From an uncultured Pelagibacteraceae bacterium (GTDB lineage: Bacteria; Pseudomonadota; Alphaproteobacteria; Pelagibacterales; Pelagibacteraceae): DNA of 35,929 nucleotides. The DNA lies in NCBI GenBank assembly GCA_902590125.1, contig CACIVL010000004.1, positions 1 to 35,929 on the forward strand, in the 5' to 3' direction. Below, piece after piece: positions 7,172 to 32,563 of this stretch. Both the position numbers and the translations under genes were made by a program. Each line of letters begins with the position of its first letter. Positions within the stretch are counted from its first letter, which is position 1. Below the pieces are notes generated by a model, which did not search any database, was not told the DNA's origin, and was given only the letters and a program-made list of their open reading frames with translations.

Positions 7172-7489
7172 TTATTCTGATTTTTTCTTTTTAAACTTAG
7201 GTATTTTTGATTTTTTCTTTTTCTTTATTTTAGGTTTTTTAGGAATTTTTGATTTTTTTGTACCCTTGACTTCTTCCTCTGCTACACCTGTTTCTTCTAG
7301 TGCTTCCATTATTTCGGTACATTTTTTTGAATCGCAAAAGTATGTTGCTCCGGTGCTACTGTTGTAAAGATATGCACCACAGTTATCTTTTTTTTTCATA
7401 GTGCAATTAACAGGTTCTAATTTATATTCTGCAAACACACTTGTTGAAGAAAATAAAAAAAATATTAAAACTAAAAAAAATTTTTTCAT
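7172..7489 (-). CDS. Hypothetical secreted protein with cysteine-containing core and lysine-rich repetitive tail
   Basis: Signal peptide MKKFFLVLIFFLFSSTSVFA, four Cys, C-terminus KKSKIPKKPKIKKKKKSKIPKFKKKK. Confidence 0.6.
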   Translation of the reverse strand: MKKFFLVLIFFLFSSTSVFAEYKLEPVNCTMKKKDNCGAYLYNSSTGATYFCDSKKCTEIMEALEETGVAEEEVKGTKKSKIPKKPKIKKKKKSKIPKFKKKKSE

Positions 7490-8888: not shown

Positions 8889-8909
8889 TACTTTAAAATT
8901 TTAAAGTAT
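8888..8909. repeat. 22-bp perfect palindrome ATACTTTAAAATTTTAAAGTAT at SBP/ATPase junction
   Basis: Direct reading; touches the stop codon of the upstream gene and overlaps the ATG of the next. Confidence 0.7.
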
Positions 8910-10677
8910 GAGTGCAGAACCAAATACAAAAGACAACACCTCTAACAAAGAGGTGTTGTCTAACAAATCAAATACTGTTACTGGCGATATTTATGTTCAA
9001 GATGTTCATAAATATTTTGGTGTAACTAGAGCTCTTAACGGAGTTAATTTTAGTGCAAACTTTGGTGAGATCCATGCCATAGTTGGTGGTAATGGTTGTG
9101 GAAAAAGTACACTTGCAAAAGTAATGTCAGGCGTCTTACCAATTGATAAAGGTAAAGTTTCTGTCTTGGGTCATGTCCCTACCTCACCCGTTATGGCGAG
9201 AGAGCTCGGTATAGCTACTGTTTTTCAAGAAGTAATGATAGCTGAAGAAGCTTCTGTTGTAGACAACTTGTTTGTTGGCTCAGATAGTTTTTGGTACAAA
9301 AATTTAACACAAAGAGAAAAAGTTTTAAAAGCGCAAGAACTTATGGAAGATCTTGCTGGAGAATATATAGATCCTTATACTCAAGCATTTAATTTATCTT
9401 TACCCATTAAAGCTTGGATTACTATAGGAAGAGCATTTTTACGTGAAAACACAAAAGTACTAATTCTAGATGAATCTTCAGCAGCACTTGATTTTGATTC
9501 AACTGAAAGACTATTTAAAAAAATGAGAGAATTAAGAGATAATGGAGTTGCAGTTTTTATTGTCACTCATCGAATAGCAGAATTAATACGTATAAGTGAT
9601 AAAGCAACAGTTATGAGAGATGGTAAAGATGTTGGTGTTCTTGAAAAAAAAGATCTTAACGAAAAAAATTTATTGAGTTTAATGACAGGAAGAACTGAAT
9701 CAGGTGAAAAATCTACATCAGTTGCAGTAAAAACAAAAACAGACAAAGTGGTAATGAAAGCAGAAAATCTAGTTGTTTGGCCGGAAAGTAAACCGGTTAA
9801 TTTTGAAGCACGTAGAGGTGAAATAGTAGGTGTTACAGGATTAGATGGTAACGGTCAGGATGACTTTGTAAAAATTTTAGCAGGTGTGCAAGAATCTCAA
9901 GGCGGTACTACCGAAGTCTTAGATGTTAATAACAAATTCATAAAATATAATTCTTTAATGGAGGCAAAAAACAATGGAATTTCCTTTGTTTCAGGAGATA
10001 GAAAAAAAGAAGGAATACTTCCTAACTTAAGTATTTACGAAAATTTAGTAGTTCCACTTTATCGAACAACAAGTAAGGCAGGATGGTTGGGTTTTGTTAA
10101 CTGGCTTGAGTTAAACGGCATATATGAATACGAAGTTGATAGACTAAGCATTAAAACTGGTCCAAGAGATAACCTTATAGGTTCGTTAAGTGGAGGCAAC
10201 CAACAAAAAGTTATGATAGCTAGATCTTTGGCAACGCATCCAAAAATTCTTGTCTTGAATGATCCTGCTAGAGGCATTGATGTAAGCACAAAAAGAGATT
10301 TATACACTCATCTCAGAAATTTTGTAGAAGAAGGAAATACAGTTATTTTCCTATCAAGTGAACTTGAAGAGTTTATCGGACTTTGTCCAAAAGTAATTGT
10401 ATTTAGACATGGAACAATATTCGATATTTTTGAAAATGAAAAAGTTAATGCAGATACCTTGCTCGAAGGAATGTTTGGTCAAACTGCAGGTATAGGATCA
10501 ACTAGTATTAGCAAATCTAATAGTGGTAATTTTTCAGAAAAAACAAATGAGATGAACACTTATAAAAAAAATCCAGCTAGTATAGATAAAAAAATTATAA
10601 AAGTTGTAGACTTTGATAAAGAAAAAAAATCTAAAGAAAATAATTCAAATAAAAAAATAAAAATAAAAACATTTTAA
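8908..10677 (+). CDS. Sugar-type ABC transporter ATP-binding protein, two nucleotide-binding domains (RbsA/MglA-like), with K/N-rich C-terminal extension
   Basis: GGNGCGKST Walker A, VLILDESSAALD; second domain SLSGGNQQKVMIARSL; C-terminal tail KKIIKVVDFDKEKK...KKIKIKTF. Start codon may be further downstream (see hairpin). Confidence 0.88.
   Translation: MSAEPNTKDNTSNKEVLSNKSNTVTGDIYVQDVHKYFGVTRALNGVNFSANFGEIHAIVGGNGCGKSTLAKVMSGVLPIDKGKVSVLGHVPTSPVMARELGIATVFQEVMIAEEASVVDNLFVGSDSFWYKNLTQREKVLKAQELMEDLAGEYIDPYTQAFNLSLPIKAWITIGRAFLRENTKVLILDESSAALDFDSTERLFKKMRELRDNGVAVFIVTHRIAELIRISDKATVMRDGKDVGVLEKKDLNEKNLLSLMTGRTESGEKSTSVAVKTKTDKVVMKAENLVVWPESKPVNFEARRGEIVGVTGLDGNGQDDFVKILAGVQESQGGTTEVLDVNNKFIKYNSLMEAKNNGISFVSGDRKKEGILPNLSIYENLVVPLYRTTSKAGWLGFVNWLELNGIYEYEVDRLSIKTGPRDNLIGSLSGGNQQKVMIARSLATHPKILVLNDPARGIDVSTKRDLYTHLRNFVEEGNTVIFLSSELEEFIGLCPKVIVFRHGTIFDIFENEKVNADTLLEGMFGQTAGIGSTSISKSNSGNFSEKTNEMNTYKKNPASIDKKIIKVVDFDKEKKSKENNSNKKIKIKTF
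8931..8961 (+). promoter_or_regulatory. Perfect 13-bp stem-loop AGACAACACCTCT-aacaa-AGAGGTGTTGTCT near the 5' end of the ATPase ORF
   Basis: Direct reading of inverted repeat, 5-nt loop. Confidence 0.75.
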
Positions 10678-11198
10678 TGAAAAAAGAAACTATAAATAAT
10701 TACTACACAGATGAAGATTTAATTAATTTTAAAAAATTAAATAATTTTAAAGAATTTAAAGCTAATAAATTAGACAACACTCAAACAACAAAACATCAAG
10801 TGAAATATTCAATGTCTGACAATAGTAATTTTAATAAAATTATGAACGTTGAAAATAGTGAAACATCTTTATTTAAAGAGATAAACAAATTAAAAGAAAA
10901 TATATACTACAACTCATCAGATTTTCAAAAATTTAACAAACTTCAGCAATTCGCAAGTTTTGATATCAACAAAGACACAAAGAATGAAAAAGAATATTCA
11001 AAAACTATCACAAGTTATACTTCTGATGACGTAAATAAATTTGATAAAATCATCAAAACCAAAAATGAAGATACAAACAGCAAAGAAACTAATAACAAAA
11101 AAATTAAAATAATTGATTTTAAAAAGTTAAAAGAAAAGGAAAAAAATTTTAAAAACAAATTGGGTATTGAAAAAATTAAAGTTGTTTATTTCGATTAA
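10677..11198 (+). CDS. Hypothetical 173-aa protein built from ~34-aa-spaced short motifs plus a tail shared with neighbouring proteins (putative scaffold/docking protein)
   Basis: Translationally coupled (TAATG) to the upstream ATPase; Y-[ST]-x-x-D-x-x-x-F-x-K-[IL]-like motifs at residues 10, 44, 78, 114; tail KKIKIIDFKK...IEKIKVVYFD. Confidence 0.75.
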   Translation: MKKETINNYYTDEDLINFKKLNNFKEFKANKLDNTQTTKHQVKYSMSDNSNFNKIMNVENSETSLFKEINKLKENIYYNSSDFQKFNKLQQFASFDINKDTKNEKEYSKTITSYTSDDVNKFDKIIKTKNEDTNSKETNNKKIKIIDFKKLKEKEKNFKNKLGIEKIKVVYFD

Positions 11199-11201
11199 TT
11201 T

Positions 11202-13523
11202 ATGGAAATTGTAGATAAAATTGCAAAAACTTATAGATCTAGTGTAGATACTTCTTCGAACAAGTATCTTATGGTGCCAATTTTTATTTTCTTTTCTCTA
11301 TTAATTTTTGCAATGATAAGAAGTCCAATTATAATTTCCCAATCAGGTATTGGTAGTGCAATAATTCTTAGTGCACCACTTATATTAACAACTTATGCTT
11401 TAACATTTATTGTTATGGCTGGCAGAGGTGGTGTCGATTTATCTATTGGTCCTTTTATGGGTTTTATAAATGTCAGCAGTATTCAGTTATATGCTCACGG
11501 ATATTTGCAAACTCCAATTGGTTGGTTCATCTATGCAATTGTCATAGGTTTAATTTGGCAATTTTTTTATGCTTTGATTGTAGTATTCGTGAGAGTTTCA
11601 CCAATTATAGTCGCATTGGCAGGCTATCTAGCATTCACTGGAATCAATCTCGTTATTCTATCTCGTCCAGGAGGTATTGCTCCAGATTGGTTAATACCTT
11701 GGGGAGAAGGATTTACAATATTTAATGAAGTATTGCTTCTAATGGTTTTAGCAACAATTTTATTTTACATCATCACTCACACAGCTTTTTGGGGTCATTT
11801 AAAATTAATGGGTTCTGATGAGCGTGCCGCATTTACAAGTGGTGTTAAAATTAACTGGGTAAGAATAGTTGCGCATTTAATAGCAGGAGTTTTTGCAGCC
11901 TTATCTGCAATATGTTTTACAGCTCTGGTAGGTTCTGGAGATCCTATACAAGGAACAAAATATACTCTTTTAGGCGTGACCGCATTAGTTCTTGGTGGGG
12001 CAAGTCTTGTTGGTGGTAGAGGTGGTGCATTTGGTGCTATTTTGGGAGCTGGAAACCTTTATTTAATAAATTATATTTTAGTTACCTTTAGATTTGAAAG
12101 ATTACAAAGCTTTGTTTCTGACTTATCCTATGGTGCTGTCTTGGTTATTGCTTTGCTTGTAAGTCTTATTCTTCCTTACGTACAAAGAGTAACTAAAGGA
12201 TTGTCCGTTATGGTTTTTTTCATTCTTATGTCTTTTGCTGGCACATTCGTTATAATGCATCAAGTTTATGATCAACCAATCGTAGTTGAATCTGAAGTAA
12301 AAGAAGATATTGACGAAGCTTCTAAAGCTTATCAAAGAGGAACCAAAGTTCGTAAGTTAGATGCTACGGGAAATATTATTGTTGAAGAAGGCGAAGCAGG
12401 AACTACTACTGGAACAGGAACAAAACAAGGCGGATCATTAGCTGGTCACTCAGTCGTTAGATTAACTGAAACTCCTGGAACAATAATGTTTTATGTAATT
12501 ATTGGAATAGCAGGTCTCGCGCTTCTTCTTTATTTGCTTACTGTTCACAGAAGTCCTTCAACAGTAACCTTTACTGTCATTGTTGCCATCATTGTAGCAG
12601 GTTTAATTTTCGATCCTGAAGATAAAGAAAAAAATTTATTAAAAGATACTGAAAAGATAAGTTTACAATCGGGACAAACAAGTAGTATCGAAACTTCATC
12701 ACCAAAATATTTTAGTCTTGAGAAGATTGATTATTTCTCAAATTTATCTATTTCAGGAACAACTTATAGTATAATTTATATTGCTGGAGTTGTTCTACTA
12801 GCTTCATTAATTGTAATAGCAATGTTACCACAATTTAGTAATCGTATAAAATCTACCGCCATGCTCTTCTTTCTGGCTGCCTTGACAATAATTGTTTTAA
12901 AAGGTGTCTCTTATAATAATTTAATTGAAAGTACTGATAAAAGCTTTTTTGGCATCCAAGGATACGGTGTCATATTGGTAATTTTATTGCTTTTTGTTAT
13001 TACAGCTCCATTCGTTCATTCAAGAATAAAAAATCTCACAAATGTTTATATTTTTGGATTAGGTGTTTTAGCAATAATAACTACTTATTTTGTTGGAGGA
13101 AATACATTTATACCTGATGATCCTTCGCTTTATCAGTCTAAAATAATAAGTGAATTAAATATTGGAGATATTTCCCAAGTAAAATATGGAGAACCAAAAA
13201 GATTTTTTTATGATATTTTAAGAAGTGGTTATTCACAAGTAGCTTTTAGTATCCTTGCTGTTTTTTTACTGCAATACTTTTTATTTTTAAATATGGGTCA
13301 TAAAGCAAGTTATAAAAGGTTTGCTCCGTATATGTATATTGTAATATTTGCAAGTTTTCTATGGGCTGCAGTATTTTATTCTGTAGGATATTCTTTTTAT
13401 AAAATTATCGCCGTATTTATTATTGGAATACCGCTTACTCCTCTAGTATGGCAATTTATGAGCGTCTACAGAGAAAAAGTAGGACGTGATAGACAATTAA
13501 GTCAATGGGAAGAGGTAAAATAA
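11202..13523 (+). CDS. Sugar-type ABC transporter permease (BPD_transp_2/RbsC-like) with long additional C-terminal membrane region
   Basis: N-terminal RbsC-like part (MAGRGGVDLSIGPFMGFINV, TALVLGGASLVGGRGGAFGAILGA); ~430 additional aa with several hydrophobic segments. Confidence 0.82.
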   Translation: MEIVDKIAKTYRSSVDTSSNKYLMVPIFIFFSLLIFAMIRSPIIISQSGIGSAIILSAPLILTTYALTFIVMAGRGGVDLSIGPFMGFINVSSIQLYAHGYLQTPIGWFIYAIVIGLIWQFFYALIVVFVRVSPIIVALAGYLAFTGINLVILSRPGGIAPDWLIPWGEGFTIFNEVLLLMVLATILFYIITHTAFWGHLKLMGSDERAAFTSGVKINWVRIVAHLIAGVFAALSAICFTALVGSGDPIQGTKYTLLGVTALVLGGASLVGGRGGAFGAILGAGNLYLINYILVTFRFERLQSFVSDLSYGAVLVIALLVSLILPYVQRVTKGLSVMVFFILMSFAGTFVIMHQVYDQPIVVESEVKEDIDEASKAYQRGTKVRKLDATGNIIVEEGEAGTTTGTGTKQGGSLAGHSVVRLTETPGTIMFYVIIGIAGLALLLYLLTVHRSPSTVTFTVIVAIIVAGLIFDPEDKEKNLLKDTEKISLQSGQTSSIETSSPKYFSLEKIDYFSNLSISGTTYSIIYIAGVVLLASLIVIAMLPQFSNRIKSTAMLFFLAALTIIVLKGVSYNNLIESTDKSFFGIQGYGVILVILLLFVITAPFVHSRIKNLTNVYIFGLGVLAIITTYFVGGNTFIPDDPSLYQSKIISELNIGDISQVKYGEPKRFFYDILRSGYSQVAFSILAVFLLQYFLFLNMGHKASYKRFAPYMYIVIFASFLWAAVFYSVGYSFYKIIAVFIIGIPLTPLVWQFMSVYREKVGRDRQLSQWEEVK

Positions 13524-15683: not shown

Positions 15684-18140
15684 ATGAAGAAAATTCTAAT
15701 AGCAAATCGTGGAGAAATTGCCTGTAGAATCATTAATAGTTGCAAAAAATTAAAGTTTCATTCAGTTGCTGTTTATTCCGATATAGACAAGAGCAGCAAA
15801 CATGTTAGAGAAGCAGATGAATCAATTCATATAGGCGGTTCAAAAGCACAGGATAGTTATTTGTCTTCAGACAAAATAATTAAAGCAGCTCAAAAAGTAA
15901 AAGCTGATGCTATTCATCCAGGCTATGGTTTTCTCGCCGAAAATGATCAATTTGCACAGAAAGTAATTGATGCTGGGATAATTTGGATAGGACCTAAACC
16001 TAATACTATTGTTTCTATGGGCAACAAAGATATAGCAAGAGATTTGGCTTTAAAAAGTGATCTTCCAATTTGTCCAGGTTTAACCAATCAAGATTTAGAA
16101 AAAAATGATTTAGAAAAAAAATGCAATGAGATTGGATTTCCTATTTTAGTAAAAGCAAGTGCTGGTGGTGGCGGAATAGGAATGCAAATTGTAAATAATT
16201 TTAGTGAATTAGTTAAATCTGTGGAAAAAACTAAAAATTTAGCGAAGAAAGCATTTGGTAATAGTGATGTTTTTTTAGAAAAATTTATAAAAAATGCAAG
16301 ACACATAGAAATACAAATATTTGGTTTTGGCGGAAAAAAAGCTGTCCATTTCTATGAAAGAGATTGTTCAATACAAAGAAGATTTCAAAAAATTATAGAA
16401 GAGAGTCCAGCTCCAAAAGTAAATTCAGAAATTATAAATAGAATGGCAGAAAGTGCTGTAAATTTTGCCGCCAATCAAAAATACGAAGGTGCTGGAACAA
16501 TAGAATTTATTTATGATGTAGACGAAAAAAAATTCTACTTTTTAGAAATGAATACAAGAATTCAAGTAGAACATCCAGTAACAGAATCTATAACAAATTC
16601 TGACTTAGTTGGAATGCAAATCAAGTTTGCATTAGGAATTGACTTTGATCTAACAGAACAAAATAAAATTAATAAAACTGGTCATGCTATTGAGTGTAGA
16701 CTGTATGCTGAAGACCCATCAAAAAATTTTCTTCCTTCACCTGGAAAAATTTCAAAACTTAAAATTCCAAACACTAATTTAACAAATATTAGATTAGATA
16801 TTGGCGTGGATGAAGGAGATGAAATATCTTTTTATTATGATCCAATGATAGCAAAAATTATTGCTAAAGGATCTACCAGAAATGAAAGTATTAAAAATAT
16901 GATACAATATTTAAAAGAATTTGAAATTGAAGGAATTAGTACTAATAAATCTTTTTTAATATCTGTACTTCAAAATAAAAATTTTGAAGAGGCAAATTTT
17001 AATACAAAATTTATTGAAAATAACTTGGCCTCATTTATTAAGAAAAAAGAAAATATTTTACCAACCAAAGAACAAGATAAAAATAAAATTAAACAAGAAT
17101 ATAGCGATAAAGATGTAAAAGCTTTTGAAAAAATTATTTCTAAAACACCCAAAAGTAAAAATGGCCAAGGCTATTCAGAAAAGGATTTAAAAGCCTTTGA
17201 TAATATTGTTTCTTCAAAAAAGAAAAAAACTCAAACAGAATTAAAAGAAGAAGTTAAAAATATTCAAGGTAAAATTTACGATACTCCTAAATTTTTACCT
17301 GCTGGTGATAAATATATGCTTATTGAATTTGGTAATGTAATGAATTTAGAATTAAATTTTACTGCTCAAAATTTAGCTAAAGCAATTAAAGAACATAAAG
17401 TTAGAGGTATTTATGAAACTTCTCCTTGTTTTGCATCTATGCTAGTACACTATGAACCAGAAGAAATAAAATTTGATGATTTAAAAAAAGAATTAAAATC
17501 TCTTGTAGACTCTTTAGGTCCTTCTGATGATATAGAAATTAATAGTAGAATTTTTTCTTTTCCTACAGTTTATCTTGATAAATGGACAAAGGAATGCATT
17601 GAAGATTACTCAAACAAAATAGCTAAAAAGAAACCTGATCCTGAGCTTATTACAGAATTAAATAATTTGGAAAGCACAGAACAATTTGTAAGAGTACATT
17701 CTGGAACTGAATATTGGGTCTCTGCTATAGGTTTTTGGCCTGGCCTTCCGTTTATGATGGCTCTTGACCCAAGGTGTAAGCTTACAGTTCCAAAATATAA
17801 CCCTCCACGAACATGGACACCAAAAGGAACAGTTGGAATGGGCGGTGCTTCTACATCAATATATCCTGATCGGTTACCGGGTGGATATCAAATTTTTGGA
17901 ATTATTCCTGTTCCAATTTGGGATACAAAAAAAAGTTTTCCAGTATTTGAAAATAACATTTGTCTTTTTCAACCGGGAGATAGAGTAAAATTTATTCCTA
18001 CAACGTATGAAGAGTTTGATCATGTTTCAAAAAAAGTAGAAGATGGTACTTATGATTACAATATTATTGAGTATCAAAAATTTTCTGTAAAAAATTATAA
18101 AAAATGGCTAACTACAATTGATCAAACGAAAAGGTTTTAA
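15684..18140 (+). CDS. Fusion of biotin carboxylase and KipI/AHS1 (PxpB-like) domains joined by a motif-containing linker
   Basis: BC domain: KILIANRGEIACRII, FLEMNTRIQVEHPVTE; KipI/AHS1: GLPFMMALDPRCKLTVPKYNPPRTWTPKGTVGMGGASTSIYP; linker with EYSDKDVKAFEKIIS and GYSEKDLKAFDNIVS. Confidence 0.9.
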   Translation: MKKILIANRGEIACRIINSCKKLKFHSVAVYSDIDKSSKHVREADESIHIGGSKAQDSYLSSDKIIKAAQKVKADAIHPGYGFLAENDQFAQKVIDAGIIWIGPKPNTIVSMGNKDIARDLALKSDLPICPGLTNQDLEKNDLEKKCNEIGFPILVKASAGGGGIGMQIVNNFSELVKSVEKTKNLAKKAFGNSDVFLEKFIKNARHIEIQIFGFGGKKAVHFYERDCSIQRRFQKIIEESPAPKVNSEIINRMAESAVNFAANQKYEGAGTIEFIYDVDEKKFYFLEMNTRIQVEHPVTESITNSDLVGMQIKFALGIDFDLTEQNKINKTGHAIECRLYAEDPSKNFLPSPGKISKLKIPNTNLTNIRLDIGVDEGDEISFYYDPMIAKIIAKGSTRNESIKNMIQYLKEFEIEGISTNKSFLISVLQNKNFEEANFNTKFIENNLASFIKKKENILPTKEQDKNKIKQEYSDKDVKAFEKIISKTPKSKNGQGYSEKDLKAFDNIVSSKKKKTQTELKEEVKNIQGKIYDTPKFLPAGDKYMLIEFGNVMNLELNFTAQNLAKAIKEHKVRGIYETSPCFASMLVHYEPEEIKFDDLKKELKSLVDSLGPSDDIEINSRIFSFPTVYLDKWTKECIEDYSNKIAKKKPDPELITELNNLESTEQFVRVHSGTEYWVSAIGFWPGLPFMMALDPRCKLTVPKYNPPRTWTPKGTVGMGGASTSIYPDRLPGGYQIFGIIPVPIWDTKKSFPVFENNICLFQPGDRVKFIPTTYEEFDHVSKKVEDGTYDYNIIEYQKFSVKNYKKWLTTIDQTKRF

Positions 18141-18145
18141 TATTT

Positions 18146-19273
18146 ATGGTAAAAGTAATTAAAAAAGGCTTAGAAACATCTGTTCAAGATTATCCTGGGA
18201 GAATTGGAACTCTTAATCTAGGTTTTCCGCCATCGGGTCCTATGGATAGTTGGTCTTTCAGGCTTGCTAATGTTTTGGTTGAAAATGAACCTGGTGCTGC
18301 AGCCCTAGAATGTCAATTTATGGGTCCTACTCTTAAGTTTAATAGTGATAGAATTATTGCTATCACTGGTGCTGATATGTCTCCAAAAATAGATGGCAAA
18401 TTGGTTCCTTTATGGGAAAGCTTGGAAGTTAAAAAAAATCAAACTTTAGAACTGGCTTATGCAACAATGGGCGCTAGGACATATATTGCTTTTTCAGGAG
18501 GAATAAATACCACTCCATGGCTAGGCTCAAGATCAACCTTTCATAAAGCAGGAGTTGGTGGTATCGAAGGAAAAGCAATTCAAGATGGTCAAATTATTCC
18601 TTTAAACAAATCTAAATCTGTCGCAGGAAGAAAAATTAAAAAAAACTCTATACCAGTTATGTCTACAAATAAAAAATGGTCTGTAGAAGTTGTTAAAGGT
18701 CCTAATGATGATTGGGTTGATGAAAAAGGACATAAAATGTTTTTAAATTCCGATTGGAAGCTTCAGTCTAAAAGTGACAGAACTGGTTATAGATTAGAAG
18801 GACCAAAGTGGTCTTTTACAAAAAAAGCAACTCACAAAGGTTTAGAACATGGAACATTTCCTTCAAATATTATTGATCAAGGATATCCAGTAGGCGCCAT
18901 AAACTTAGCTGGCCAAACTCCAATTATATTAGTTAATGATGGTCCTAGCATGGGTGGATTTATCGTTCCCTATACTGTTCCTTCAGCTTCTTTTTGGAAA
19001 CTTGGACAAGCAAAACCAGGTGATAGTTTTAATTTTGTGGAAATATCAGTTGAAAAAGCTCAAACATTAAGAGCTGAACAAAGTATTATTTGTAGTGAAT
19101 TAAGTTTAGCGTCTTCTAAAGAAGAAAATGTTGTTATTCCTAAAATACCAACTAAAAAAATTGATCATATTAAAATAGTAGATTTTGATAAAGAAAAAAT
19201 AGATGAAAAAATCAGAAATAAAATAATGGAAAAAAGAGGAATGAAAAATATTAAAGTTCGTTTTTTTAATTAA
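18146..19273 (+). CDS. KipA/AHS2 (PxpC-like) biotin-dependent carboxyltransferase family protein with C-terminal motif tail
   Basis: SVQDYPGRIGTLNLGFPPSGPMDSWSFRLAN, GGFIVPYTVPSASFWKLGQAKPGD; tail DHIKIVDFDKEK...KNIKVRFFN. Confidence 0.9.
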   Translation: MVKVIKKGLETSVQDYPGRIGTLNLGFPPSGPMDSWSFRLANVLVENEPGAAALECQFMGPTLKFNSDRIIAITGADMSPKIDGKLVPLWESLEVKKNQTLELAYATMGARTYIAFSGGINTTPWLGSRSTFHKAGVGGIEGKAIQDGQIIPLNKSKSVAGRKIKKNSIPVMSTNKKWSVEVVKGPNDDWVDEKGHKMFLNSDWKLQSKSDRTGYRLEGPKWSFTKKATHKGLEHGTFPSNIIDQGYPVGAINLAGQTPIILVNDGPSMGGFIVPYTVPSASFWKLGQAKPGDSFNFVEISVEKAQTLRAEQSIICSELSLASSKEENVVIPKIPTKKIDHIKIVDFDKEKIDEKIRNKIMEKRGMKNIKVRFFN

Positions 19274-19295: not shown

Positions 19296-19514
19296 ATGGC
19301 AACTGAAGTTAAAACAACTGTACCAGGCAATATGTGGAAGGTTTTAGTCAAAGAAGGAGACACAGTAAAAAAAGGTGATCCTTTATTTATTATGGAAGTT
19401 ATGAAAACAGAAGTCCATCACGATTCTCCGGTTGACGGAAAAGTGATTAAAGTTAATGTTGTAAACGATCAAGAAGGCATAGATCCAGGTACAGTAGCAG
19501 TTATAATTGAATGA
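19296..19514 (+). CDS. Biotinyl carrier domain protein (BCCP-like)
   Basis: 72-aa lipoyl/biotinyl fold with MEVMKTE (biotinylation lysine context). Confidence 0.9.
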   Translation: MATEVKTTVPGNMWKVLVKEGDTVKKGDPLFIMEVMKTEVHHDSPVDGKVIKVNVVNDQEGIDPGTVAVIIE

Positions 19515-19720
19515 TACAAAAAAAAACAAAAGAATCTTTATATTTAACAATAATAAATGACCTGTCAGACGATATAGGAATATCAAAAGAAGAAACGAAA
19601 AGTTTGGTTGATGTTGCCCTGTACTCTACTGATCCCAGAGATGTAGATTACGAACAGTTAAAAAATGAAATTACAACATTTCTAGTTATCAACATTTTTT
19701 TTCTTATCTGTAAATTGTAA
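19511..19720 (+). CDS. Small hypothetical protein overlapping BCCP stop (ATGA)
   Basis: 69-aa ORF with ATGA overlap, same operon; no family recognised. Confidence 0.5.
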   Translation: MIQKKTKESLYLTIINDLSDDIGISKEETKSLVDVALYSTDPRDVDYEQLKNEITTFLVINIFFLICKL

Positions 19721-21300: not shown

Positions 21301-22137
21301 TTAATCGTAGTAAAACATTGGTGCTTTTTTCCAATCTTGCCAAGAAACTGGGTCATGGCCCCAAATAACTTTTGCATCATGTTCTCTCGCAACTCTTCTT
21401 AATTTTTTAACAGATTCTGCTGCATCAGAAGATGAAGCAACAAGTCCTGGCAAACATTTATCACACCAATGATCACCCGTATAACAAGCATCTCCAGTAA
21501 ATAACATATGACCAGTTTTTGGAAGATTGACCAATACCGATTGATGACCAGGAGTATGCCCAGGTGTAAATATTACTTTTATAACTCCATCACCATAAAC
21601 ATCGTAAAAATCAGTTTTTCTACCTTGTAAAAATTTCCAACGAATATTTGGTTTATCAAAGTCCGCTCTAATGTAAGCTGGTTGTGAAAACCAATCAGGA
21701 TTAAATGCATAATCATATTCTAATCTTTGTGTAATATGTGTAGCATTTGGAAAATGTCCTATTGCACCTGAGTGATCTAAGTGAAGATGAGTTTGTATAA
21801 CATATTTAACATCTTCAGGTTTTGTATTAACAGTTTTTACCATATCCTTACACCATTCTGATGTTTTCATTACCGGGTCATAAGCTTCAACCACAGAACC
21901 CCAATGTTTATGTTTATCTATAGCTGCCTCTATTGGCATTCCACCATCTATAATTACATCGCCCTCAGGATGTTTAATTAAAAACCATGGTACTGGAATT
22001 TCATAAGGTTCTTCACCTTGGTTCATTTTTATAAATTTTAATTTTGTTTTAATTGAACCTGTTTGAAACATGTATAATTTAATACCTGTATTAAATTTTG
22101 TTGTTTGTTCAAAAATATCTTTGTCTTTTTCTTTCAT
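21301..22137 (-). CDS. Metallo-beta-lactamase fold hydrolase, N-acyl homoserine lactonase/AttM-BlcC-like
   Basis: QTHLHLDHSGAIGHF (HxHxDH), FTPGHTPGHQSVLV, LFTGDACY, IWGHD. Confidence 0.87.
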   Translation of the reverse strand: MKEKDKDIFEQTTKFNTGIKLYMFQTGSIKTKLKFIKMNQGEEPYEIPVPWFLIKHPEGDVIIDGGMPIEAAIDKHKHWGSVVEAYDPVMKTSEWCKDMVKTVNTKPEDVKYVIQTHLHLDHSGAIGHFPNATHITQRLEYDYAFNPDWFSQPAYIRADFDKPNIRWKFLQGRKTDFYDVYGDGVIKVIFTPGHTPGHQSVLVNLPKTGHMLFTGDACYTGDHWCDKCLPGLVASSSDAAESVKKLRRVAREHDAKVIWGHDPVSWQDWKKAPMFYYD

Positions 22138-25407: not shown

Positions 25408-25776
25408 TTATGTGCAACGCCTTGGTGCTGATTCACCTCGTTCTTTTTTGATTCTTTCAGCTTCTTTCTGTGCTGCTTCAATTGAAGTAAAAACTTTATC
25501 TTCATACAAAATAAATGGCTTAGCTCTATCAGCATTAAGCTGGGCTACACACCATTCTTTACCAGGCTTAGTGCACATTACCATGTAAGCTCCTGGTATA
25601 GGTCCGTATTTTCTATTATTTAAAGTAAAAAGACTTTTAGCTAGTTCATTTAGTTTATCTTCATCTAAATTTCCCAAAGCATTTTTTTCTAATTCATTAA
25701 AAGGTGTAACATTATCAGATCCTAGTATGCTTTTACCGCCTGTTCCTTCTGGTCTTGTAAATTGAGGTTTGTTCAT
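25408..25776 (-). CDS. Small protein, possible second DMFase small-subunit-like protein
   Basis: 122 aa; AYMVMCTKPGKEWCVAQLNADRAKPFILYEDKVFTSIEAAQKEAERI resembles by eye the C-terminal part of the 28156-28575 protein; 1-nt overlap with the large-subunit gene. Confidence 0.5.
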   Translation of the reverse strand: MNKPQFTRPEGTGGKSILGSDNVTPFNELEKNALGNLDEDKLNELAKSLFTLNNRKYGPIPGAYMVMCTKPGKEWCVAQLNADRAKPFILYEDKVFTSIEAAQKEAERIKKERGESAPRRCT

Positions 25777-28155: not shown

Positions 28156-28575
28156 TCATTCTGCATATCTTTCTAATAAGTCTACAACTCTCTTTAAAAA
28201 AATAGCATGCTCACAGGCTTCTTCTGAAGAAAATGACTCTTCTAATATTTTAACCGGCTGACCTCTTACTCCTGTTACAATCCCTATTCTATAATCTTCA
28301 AAATCTTTCTTACAAACTGTTACATATTTTTTTATATGCATTGGTTGTCTTCTAAGTTTATCTAAAACAATTTGAAGTTCCTTGCTATGTTCGACCATTG
28401 GTTGGCCTTTGTGGGGTTGAGCAGCTTTGCCAACTGGACATGCTCTATGCTCTTCGATTAATTTATTTCTCATTTTTTCATCTTTTAATAAAGGAAGAAC
28501 GTAGGTACGAGTTATATAATCATCTGTACTTGTGTGACCTTGGTTTAACTGAACTCCAGTTTTGTCTTTGTTCAT
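28156..28575 (-). CDS. N,N-dimethylformamidase-like small subunit
   Basis: LRRQPMHIKKYVTVCKKDFEDYRIGIVTGVRGQPVKILEESFSSEEACEHAIFLKRVVDL resembles the DMFase alpha-subunit C-terminal half (from memory); adjacent to large subunit. Confidence 0.65.
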   Translation of the reverse strand: MNKDKTGVQLNQGHTSTDDYITRTYVLPLLKDEKMRNKLIEEHRACPVGKAAQPHKGQPMVEHSKELQIVLDKLRRQPMHIKKYVTVCKKDFEDYRIGIVTGVRGQPVKILEESFSSEEACEHAIFLKRVVDLLERYAE

Positions 28576-29869: not shown

Positions 29870-31843
29870 TTACTTAGAACTCTTGGTTCCTTTAGTTGGA
29901 TCATTGTCGAAGTTCATATGATAATCTTTTTTTGGATTCTCATAATCGCCAAGAATATTTCTGATGTTGCTTATTTCTCCAGGATTCATTCCAATTTCTT
30001 TAAGCAAACTATCTAAAAATGGTTGATGTGCTCTATAACGTAGTGCTGAACTAACGACGTTATCTGCTAAATTACCACTTCTTCCAGATCCTCCTGCAGT
30101 TACTCCTTCTCCGCTGCTTCCTCCTGAACCAGAGGTTCCACTAAAACCAGGTAAACCATTAACATCAACAATTTTGATATCACCTATGTTAGCCATTGGT
30201 TTAACGCTTTCTCTAATGATTGCTTCAATTTTCTCAGCAAGTTTTAATCTCAGTGCACTTCTTCTACTTGCGTCACTTCTTAAGTTTTCAGCAGCGTTTA
30301 ATGCTTCCTTACCAGCTGCATCTATCTCATATCTTAACTTCGCTGCCATAGTAGCAAACCTATCTTGTTCGGCTTTTGAAGCAGCAGAAATAACATCAAC
30401 TTTTTTAATACCTTGTGCTTTTTCTATGTATCTAGCTGAATTTGCTTTTTCTTCAGCTTCTACTGCTCTTGCTCTTGTTGCTTCTTCTTCTGCTTTAGAT
30501 TTTAATACTTGTTTTGATTTATTAATTACTTCAAGATTTTTTTGATGTTCTTCTATACTTAATCTCTTAGCTTTTTCTATATCAAGAAGCCGTACTTCTC
30601 TTTCCGTCTCAATTCTATGAGAATCTATATTTCTTTGTTGAGCTATTTTAGCATTTTTAATTTCTTGTTCAGAAATTATTTGTGCTTCTTCGGCATCTTT
30701 TTGTCTTTCTGATTGTTCTTTAATTATAGCGGTTTTTTCCTGAGCACGCTTTATATCAACTTGCCTTTGTTTTTCTAAACGTGCATATTCACTTTCTTTA
30801 TCTAGATTCAAAATTTTTACTTCTGTCTCCAGGTCTTTTTGTCTTATTTCATAAGCTGCATTTTTTTCTAACTCATTTTGCTCTTTTCTTCGTTTTTCAA
30901 TTTCTTCAATCAATCTTGTTTCGGTTAATTTTCTTTCAACTTCAATAACTTGATTTTGAGAAATTTTTGCTACTTCAATTTGCTCTTGGCTTCTTATTTC
31001 AGCTTCTTCAGCTTCACGTTCTTTTTCAGCTCTTTGTTTTACAGTTTCCGTTCTTTCTTTGGCTTTTTGAATAGCAACTTCTCTTTCTTGTTGATATCTA
31101 GAAAACTCCTCGTTCTTCTTAATCTCTAATTCTTTTTGAACAGTTTCTAAGTTTTTATTTTCAATTGAAATTTTTGTATCTTGCGTGATATCATTTCTCT
31201 TTTTCTTTCTAGATTCAATTTGTTCAGTTAATTGCGTTAAACCTTGAGAGTCAAAAGTGTTTGCAGGATTAAACTGTTCAATTGGAGTTTGATCTAATGA
31301 TATAATAGAAACAGTTTCTAATGCTAAACCTGTGTGGCCTATTGATTCATTAGCAATCTTTGTAACTTCTTTTACAAATTGTCCTCTGTTTTCTTGAATT
31401 TCATCTAATGTCATTTTTGCAGCAACTTCTCCCAGTGCATCTGCAAAACGACCTGCAACTACTTCTCTTAAATGTTCTGGATCAAGAGTTCTATTACCCA
31501 AAGTCTGTGCAGCAGTTGCTACAGCTCTTTGATCTGGTGGAACTTTTGTAAAAAATTCAGTTACCAACTCTGCTCTCATCCTATCTTTTGTAATAAGTGA
31601 TTTTTCTCCAGATCTTTTTATATTAATGCTTAATGTACGCATTCCAACTTGCGTTATGTTATGAATAATAGGTAAGACAAAAGCTCCACCTGATATAACA
31701 ACTTTTTCTCCAAGCATTCCTGTACGTACAAATGAAACTTCTTTTGATGATCTTCTGTATAGCCAATGCAATAAATAAACCACAATTGCTATTGCAAGCG
31801 CTAATAAAATTATTGCTGCTATTATATCTGCTCCTCTAGTCAT
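29870..31843 (-). CDS. Flotillin / SPFH (Band 7) family protein
   Basis: N-terminal TM, GGAFVLPIIHNITQVGMRTLSINI, long Glu/Lys/Arg-rich coiled coil, Gly/Ser-rich C-terminus. Confidence 0.88.
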   Translation of the reverse strand: MTRGADIIAAIILLALAIAIVVYLLHWLYRRSSKEVSFVRTGMLGEKVVISGGAFVLPIIHNITQVGMRTLSINIKRSGEKSLITKDRMRAELVTEFFTKVPPDQRAVATAAQTLGNRTLDPEHLREVVAGRFADALGEVAAKMTLDEIQENRGQFVKEVTKIANESIGHTGLALETVSIISLDQTPIEQFNPANTFDSQGLTQLTEQIESRKKKRNDITQDTKISIENKNLETVQKELEIKKNEEFSRYQQEREVAIQKAKERTETVKQRAEKEREAEEAEIRSQEQIEVAKISQNQVIEVERKLTETRLIEEIEKRRKEQNELEKNAAYEIRQKDLETEVKILNLDKESEYARLEKQRQVDIKRAQEKTAIIKEQSERQKDAEEAQIISEQEIKNAKIAQQRNIDSHRIETEREVRLLDIEKAKRLSIEEHQKNLEVINKSKQVLKSKAEEEATRARAVEAEEKANSARYIEKAQGIKKVDVISAASKAEQDRFATMAAKLRYEIDAAGKEALNAAENLRSDASRRSALRLKLAEKIEAIIRESVKPMANIGDIKIVDVNGLPGFSGTSGSGGSSGEGVTAGGSGRSGNLADNVVSSALRYRAHQPFLDSLLKEIGMNPGEISNIRNILGDYENPKKDYHMNFDNDPTKGTKSSK

Positions 31844-31864: not shown

Positions 31865-32563
31865 TCAAGCTCCTTTCCTTGTGTCGTCTAAAGCCGCACT
31901 GTAAATTATCATTCCAAAAATAATTTTGTTCAGTATATCGGCTAGATTATAAATTATGTTTAAACTGTTGATATTTGCTCCACCAGCCAAGTGTTCAATA
32001 AAGTATCCAATGTGATAAATTGAAAAACCTATCGTTATAATCAATCTATTGGCAAAAAACGCCATCTGAACGCTCTCATTATTGCATGATGCGTTATTTC
32101 TTCCTGCATCACCCATATAAAGCTCGCCAATAATATAAAGCCAACCAACAATACCCACCAGGAACCCAAGTGTAACACTCATATATCCATAAGCTCCTAG
32201 AAGCTGCGCTATGACCCAAACTAGTGTACCAACAAGCAATCGCCAGAACATTCCCCTCTTAACATCGGTAACTGACTTAAGCATCACATAAAAAGTTAAA
32301 ATTGTAAGTGGAAAAGTCAATATCCAGTCAATATACCTTAAAGCTGTAGGTGCTTGACCGTTCAATACCCATAAATTTTTTGCGTAGAAGTAATGTATAG
32401 AAGACATTAGCGCTATAACGCCAACAAGATTCATTGCCGTACCCCATCTGTTCGATAGACGACCTCTTTCTAAGAAGAAAAATATAGCCGCTCCTATCAT
32501 TGCGACTGAAATTAACCAGAATGATCCTCCAACAACATCTTGTGGAAGCAATAACTTGTTCAT
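31865..32563 (-). CDS. Proteorhodopsin-like microbial rhodopsin (divergent)
   Basis: RYIDWILTFPLTILTFY (helix C), IYNLADILNKIIFG with retinal-binding Lys (codon 31925-31927), His75 equivalent in SSIHYFYAK; 7-TM-sized (232 aa). Confidence 0.92.
   Translation of the reverse strand: MNKLLLPQDVVGGSFWLISVAMIGAAIFFFLERGRLSNRWGTAMNLVGVIALMSSIHYFYAKNLWVLNGQAPTALRYIDWILTFPLTILTFYVMLKSVTDVKRGMFWRLLVGTLVWVIAQLLGAYGYMSVTLGFLVGIVGWLYIIGELYMGDAGRNNASCNNESVQMAFFANRLIITIGFSIYHIGYFIEHLAGGANINSLNIIYNLADILNKIIFGMIIYSAALDDTRKGA

Follow-up and report, generated by a model that had tools for sequence, protein, structure and literature searches.

The flotillin-associated rhodopsin cluster of the window

The stretch of Pelagibacteraceae DNA analyzed here (35,929 nt, hereafter the window) is a copy of the known flotillin-associated rhodopsin (FAR) cluster. 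The FArhodopsin (31865-32563) and flotillin (29870-31843) genes lie together on the minus strand with a 21-nt spacer between them, and match the Pfam families Bac_rhodopsin and Flot plus Band_7, respectively. Alignment to the RYxDW motif gives D85, T89 and T96 as the key residues of the rhodopsin, which is the D-T-T type of SAR11. The gene content also agrees with the published cluster, comprising the rhodopsin-flotillin pair, a sterol-carrier-like gene, a sodium symporter, DMFase, PxpA and biotin carboxylase genes (PMC10308929). Haro-Moreno et al. 2023 found this cluster in SAR11, HIMB59 and Pseudothioglobus, and proposed that it has a role in membrane microdomains (PMC10308929). Shared motifs or a repeat protein are not mentioned in the portions of that description covered by a term search.

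The enzyme part of the window is centered on an 818-aa fusion of biotin carboxylase and KipI (BC-KipI; 15684-18140, plus strand), with Pfam matches to Biotin_carb_N, CPSase_L_D2 and Biotin_carb_C in its first part and to CT_C_D in its second. It is accompanied by a KipA/AHS2 gene (375 aa; 18146-19273, plus strand), a biotin carrier (BCCP) and PxpA. Together, the BC, KipI, KipA and BCCP parts cover urea carboxylase (TIGR02712); however, urea carboxylase is a single BC-CT-BCCP polypeptide, whereas in the window BC is fused to KipI, and KipA and BCCP are separate. With the domains thus split over three genes, BC-KipI scores 732 bits and KipA 324 bits against the curated cut-off of 1304. PxpA, KipI and KipA are also the parts of the 5-oxoprolinase PxpABC, to which the window adds BC and BCCP; at curated cut-offs the PxpA models (NF003814 and NF003816) are passed, and those for PxpB (TIGR00370) and PxpC (NF045499) are not. 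The linker motifs described below are absent from both the urea carboxylase and the PxpABC families.

The transporter genes include an ABC transporter ATPase (8908-10677, plus strand), followed by a gene for a 173-aa repeat protein (REP; 10677-11198, plus strand), for which searches of Pfam and NCBIfam returned no match, and by PERM1 (773 aa; 11202-13523). The latter has a single permease domain (aa 54-317) and an additional long C-terminal membrane region, which is also kept in HIMB59-type genomes. Adjoining the transporter operon is a gene for a small exported cysteine-containing protein (7172-7489, minus strand), a homologue of which lies inside the operon in HIMB59-type genomes. In both SAR11 and HIMB59-type clusters, the DMFase-like gene is flanked by genes for a 139-aa (28156-28575, minus strand) and a 122-aa protein (25408-25776, minus strand), neither of which has a Pfam match.

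A repeated motif in the BC-KipI linker and in REP

The initial annotation had pointed out two similar peptides in BC-KipI, and both are indeed present in frame, EYSDKDVKAFEKIISK at 17097-17144 and GYSEKDLKAFDNIVSS at 17169-17216, with 24 aa from tyrosine to tyrosine. They lie, as it had stated, between the end of Biotin_carb_C (aa 445) and the start of CT_C_D/KipI (aa 536), in a linker (aa 447-535; 17022-17288, plus strand) that is predicted to be disordered, falling below the charge-hydropathy boundary and dropping in identity relative to the BC domain. The core of each peptide, which we call tag A, is YSDKDVKAFEKI in copy 1 (aa 473-484; 17100-17135, plus strand) and YSEKDLKAFDNI in copy 2 (aa 497-508; 17172-17207, plus strand).

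The matching peptide SYTSDDVNKFDKIIKT reported from the 173-aa frame about 6 kb upstream was found as well, but REP holds three further copies that had gone unlisted. All four are on the plus strand: YTDEDLINFKKL (aa 10-21; 10704-10739), YSMSDNSNFNKI (aa 44-55; 10806-10841), YNSSDFQKFNKL (aa 78-89; 10908-10943) and YTSDDVNKFDKI (aa 114-125; 11016-11051), the last being the copy noticed at first. The shared consensus is Y-x3-D-x3-F-x2-[IL]. Thus, from the consensus originally given, Y at position 0, D at +4, F at +8 and I or L at +11 stand as fixed, whereas S/T at +1, V/L at +5 and D/E at +9 turned out to be tolerant.

Tag A is real and far beyond chance expectation. The strict pattern matches six times in REP and the linker and nowhere else in the 35 window genes examined, which together encode approximately 11,500 aa. 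Composition-preserving shuffles predict 0.006 copies in REP (four observed) and 0.0014 in the linker (two observed), about 0.007 when summed, and the observed copy number was reached in 0 of 20,000 shuffles.

We collected orthologues from SAR11 genomes and from a REP-alignment scan of GTDB contigs, which retrieved 37 loci, nearly all of them Pelagibacteraceae/Pelagibacter (one Flavobacteriales locus is presumably mislabelled). Many of the genomes compared are incomplete single-cell assemblies, on which the gene absences described below partly depend, and their relatedness lowers the effective number of observations. The alignment of BC-KipI orthologues bore out the expected contrast between an invariant motif and a drifting linker background. 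In 34 distinct sequences, residues 450-526 of the linker contain nine invariant columns, which are the eight motif positions (Y473, D477, F481 and I484 in copy 1; Y497, D501, F505 and I508 in copy 2) and N526 (hypergeometric P = 4×10−10, treating columns as independent and ignoring relatedness). Identity at the motif positions is 100% in all pairs, compared with a mean pairwise identity of 51% (minimum 22%) in the rest of the linker and 83% in the BC domain.

REP behaves similarly: over 38 sequences, mean identity is 97.5% in the motif and 42.5% in the rest of residues 1-135, and the association of motif columns with invariance has P = 3×10−13, again with columns treated as independent and relatedness ignored. 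Y, D and F are invariant in copy 1; Y, D, F and I in copy 2; Y and D in copy 3 (F in 37/38); and Y, F and I in copy 4 (D in 37/38). The codons of the motif residues differ synonymously among the sequences, which indicates that the constraint acts on the protein.

Could such a pattern have converged by low complexity or coincidence in A/T-rich genomes whose linkers are rich in N, K, D, Y and F? REP and the linker are indeed K- and N-rich, but the shuffles, the invariance against a drifting background and the recurrence of the motif on a third enzyme (see below) exclude this explanation for practical purposes.

Pooled over all orthologues, the six sites have Y at 0, D at +4 and F at +8 nearly without exception, and I or L at +11; tyrosine was never replaced by phenylalanine, and aspartate was replaced by glutamate once. 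Such strictness fits specific recognition better than a generic amphipathic helix. The fixed positions (i, i+4, i+8 and i+11) would share one face of a helix, and an AF2 model of BC-KipI has helices at aa 475-485 (copy 1) and 500-507 (copy 2); the model is of low confidence overall (18-sequence alignment, mean pLDDT 39), and these local helices are all that we cite from it.

Lipid-binding helices tolerate exchange among hydrophobic residues. The single hydrophobic face of tag A, and the presence of transporter and flotillin genes in the same cluster, would suit lipid-binding amphipathic helices that anchor REP and the enzymes to the membrane with no protein receptor; we nevertheless consider this quite improbable given the acidic residue on the conserved face, the strict Y/D/F and the lack of any requirement for basic residues.

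Tag A and a second motif across FAR clusters

A second short motif, IK[IV]xxF (tag B), occurs twice at each of three C-termini, all on the plus strand. In the ATPase tail it reads IKVVDF (10597-10614) and, at the very end, IKIKTF (10657-10674), where K, I, K, T and F are invariant in 35 sequences. REP, which therefore bears both types of tag, has IKIIDF (aa 143-148; 11103-11120) and a terminal IKVVYFD (aa 167-173; 11175-11195) that is nearly invariant in 38 sequences. The KipA tail has IKIVDF (19169-19186) and IKVRFFN (19250-19270). By the charge-hydropathy test, REP, the BC-KipI linker and the tails that bear tag B all fall on the disordered side. Genome-wide, the DNA pattern of this short motif is not enriched, and it carries no information at that scale because a reversed control pattern matches as often or more.

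We compared the window with other clusters. In one family (f32), the rhodopsin is D-N-I, which is the published HIMB59 type (PMC10308929); we call this family HIMB59-type, a clade name derived from the rhodopsin residues and the gene content. Flotillin is encoded in these clusters as well. Here BC and KipI are separate genes, KipI is extended at its N-terminus by about 130 aa in which there are two to three A tags, and tag B is found on the BC tail and on the ATPase, with none on KipA. The linker tags of SAR11 thus look like a KipI N-terminal extension that was retained on the fusion. Since FAR clusters move between lineages, the KipI tags of the two groups are probably one inheritance and not independent gains.

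The HIMB59-type MBL-fold hydrolase, an enzyme unrelated to KipI, also has an N-terminal tag A (YKKSDL-type) in every copy whose N-terminus is available. Its SAR11 orthologue (21301-22137, minus strand, in the window) has no tag-bearing N-terminal extension and no tag. REP was sought in nine HIMB59-type genomes with no match, in a search that had no positive control in that clade.

A complementary case comes from four SAR11 clusters (L086, L093, L100 and L115) that lack the whole PxpA-to-GFO block (PxpA, carboxylase, GST and GFO), so that PERM2 is directly followed by the MBL gene. Their REP proteins keep all four A tags and both B tags. KipA was not found elsewhere in these four incomplete assemblies, in which the positive control was found.

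These two cases bear on the proposal that REP exists specifically to partner BC-KipI, interacting with it directly or competing for a site on the carboxylase, and thereby couples import to carboxylation. REP and BC-KipI are encoded in one operon, and REP is present in 10/10 SAR11 loci in which KipA was found and the contig covers the ATPase-permease junction. Such a partnership nonetheless appears unlikely when REP keeps all four A tags beside no carboxylase, HIMB59-type KipI keeps its tags where REP was not found, and the MBL-fold hydrolase is tagged too.

The initial annotation had offered mutual interaction of REP and BC-KipI as one of two readings, and this is the one that our comparison disfavors; HIMB59-type clusters, with tags on KipI and no REP found, come close to one of the outcomes that the annotation itself had named as refuting. 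For the same reasons, the coupling of import with carboxylation that it had suggested is not the general purpose of the motif, although tag B is common to the ATPase and a carboxylase subunit. Its other reading, in which a shared receptor recognizes one and the same ligand on both proteins, gains support from the conservation at the protein level, the location in segments predicted to be disordered, and the tag on the third, unrelated enzyme.

In a further family (f69, genomes of about 4 Mb), the cluster comprises the symporter, binding protein, ATPase, a small protein, PERM1, PERM2, rhodopsin, flotillin, sterol-carrier-like protein, hydrolase and MBL protein; no carboxylase was found in the stretch seen. 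The ATPase ends in B-type motifs. Between ATPase and PERM1, the position of REP, lies a gene with five tandem IKI[VMR][DE]F repeats, no tag A and no Pfam match (L216:13190-13530, L217:6690-7020 and, on the minus strand, L218:9470-9790). The FAR rhodopsin of this family is D-T-I or D-T-V, which is outside the combinations that the abstract of the FAR paper lists (PMC10308929).

The transporter also occurs with an untagged ATPase in family f17, where FAR genes are absent within the 15 kb seen, and the enzymes occur without this transporter, and without tags, in family f85. We left out the KipA matches of G581 and G822, whose tails are of the SAR11 type, as probable contamination or misbinning.

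Tag B is on the ATPase in every A-bearing cluster examined, raising the idea that the A helix binds the B strand of another protein, for instance A tags of REP or KipI binding the ATPase tail, so that no extra receptor is needed. This idea is hard to reconcile with the f69 repeat gene, which has many copies of B and no A, and with the shortness of B for a specific pocket; we regard it as unlikely, if the least unlikely among the alternatives.

A degenerate DNA pattern for tag A, which demands K or N at +10 and I at +11 and hence detects part of the A sites, gave 26 matches in eight genomes. Fifteen were in long reading frames, all of them FAR proteins, and the frames of the other 11 closed within 74 aa; both genome-wide tests were searches with DNA patterns.

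The absence of matches to this pattern from long frames outside the FAR cluster in these eight genomes is not what would be expected if the motif marked proteins for processing or degradation by a housekeeping protease or chaperone. Such a reader would explain why the motif occurs independently of any single partner gene, and the motif does sit in regions predicted to be disordered. Its position, however, varies between an internal linker, an N-terminal extension and a repeat array, and four copies on REP suit multivalent binding better; we therefore give this explanation very little weight.

A putative docking code and its parallels

REP and the carboxylase each keep tag A without the other, and an unrelated enzyme is tagged; a common receptor is therefore the economical reading. 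On these comparative grounds we somewhat favor the view that tag A docks its carriers on a third protein, a receptor common to them all, and that REP is a multivalent linker. We infer that binding is through the helix, to one common receptor, and leads to co-assembly of the carriers.

Several window proteins were considered as the receptor. BC, KipI, KipA, BCCP and PxpA are disfavored, being absent where the REP tags persist. The 69-aa protein (19511-19720, plus strand), predicted to form three helices (AF2 pLDDT 84, no PDB match), is likewise absent from the carboxylase-less clusters that keep the A tags of REP and so would not be an obligate receptor, unless encoded elsewhere. This leaves the FAR core (flotillin, rhodopsin, transporter, symporter, sterol-carrier-like protein, hydrolase and DMFase parts) or a housekeeping protein. 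Our guess would be flotillin, as receptor or organizer, or the transporter; flotillins are membrane scaffolds, which makes flotillin attractive. The 69-aa protein has no family match and is possibly an assembly factor; its gene is conserved downstream of the biotin carrier gene in both SAR11 and HIMB59-type clusters, and its presence goes with that of the carboxylase.

In the mechanism that we propose, tag A would be a short docking helix whose Y, D, F and I/L, on one face, are recognized by a pocket of a third protein that these FAR clusters have in common. REP would act as a disordered multivalent linker through its four A and two B tags. Enzymes would become clients by carrying between one and three A tags, located in a disordered linker or N-terminal extension, as suggested for BC-KipI in SAR11 and for KipI and the MBL-fold hydrolase in HIMB59-type genomes. 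Tag B, usually a C-terminal pair and probably strand-like, would provide a second tether, borne by the transporter ATPase and by a single carboxylase subunit, which is KipA in SAR11 and BC in HIMB59-type genomes. Between them, the two tags would bring the transporter and the enzymes together in a single assembly, probably located at the inner membrane close to flotillin. In the clusters that have a carboxylase, import may be coupled to carboxylation, since tag B occurs both on the ATPase and on KipA (or BC). The receptors of tags A and B may be different, as family f69 has B and no A.

Recruitment by short motifs is already known from pyrenoids and alpha-carboxysomes. In the Chlamydomonas pyrenoid (EPYC1, RBMP1/2, SAGA1/2), one short Rubisco-binding motif occurs several times on a disordered repeat protein, is found on further proteins too, and recruits its carriers to a common hub (PMC10473226). 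That system differs from the FAR tags in belonging to a eukaryotic plastid, in motif sequence and in its hub, the Rubisco small subunit; the FAR tags are bacterial and their hub is putative.

In the alpha-carboxysome, CsoS2 is a bacterial disordered scaffold with four repeated short motifs and CsoSCA an enzyme with a disordered N-terminal peptide, and the two meet at the same site on the Rubisco hub (PMC10614612). Their motifs, however, are mostly different, and the Rubisco hub lies inside a shell, whereas the FAR scaffold and clients share one motif. Shell genes were not seen in the window, nor was a Rubisco gene among the window genes identified. REP thus resembles EPYC1 and CsoS2 in its predicted mechanism, as a disordered protein with a repeated short motif that recurs on client enzymes, with no claim of homology; it has no Pfam or NCBIfam family that would place it with either, and no Rubisco gene was identified beside it.

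What would be new here is an instance of motif-coded recruitment in streamlined marine heterotrophs, SAR11 and HIMB59-type, and it would give a molecular handle on what the flotillin-rhodopsin cluster assembles. Because the motif is defined by four residues, a search for the receptor and the design of point mutants should be straightforward. More tentatively, FAR clusters may be tag-addressed membrane metabolons or condensates, built with an A helix code, a B strand code and a multivalent linker and organized on flotillin and possibly rhodopsin, in which enzymes and transporter gain or lose tags as the cluster content changes. We hold this wider idea as a possibility that is on the whole doubtful; if true, it would assign a concrete biochemical function to the orphan pair of FArhodopsin and flotillin.
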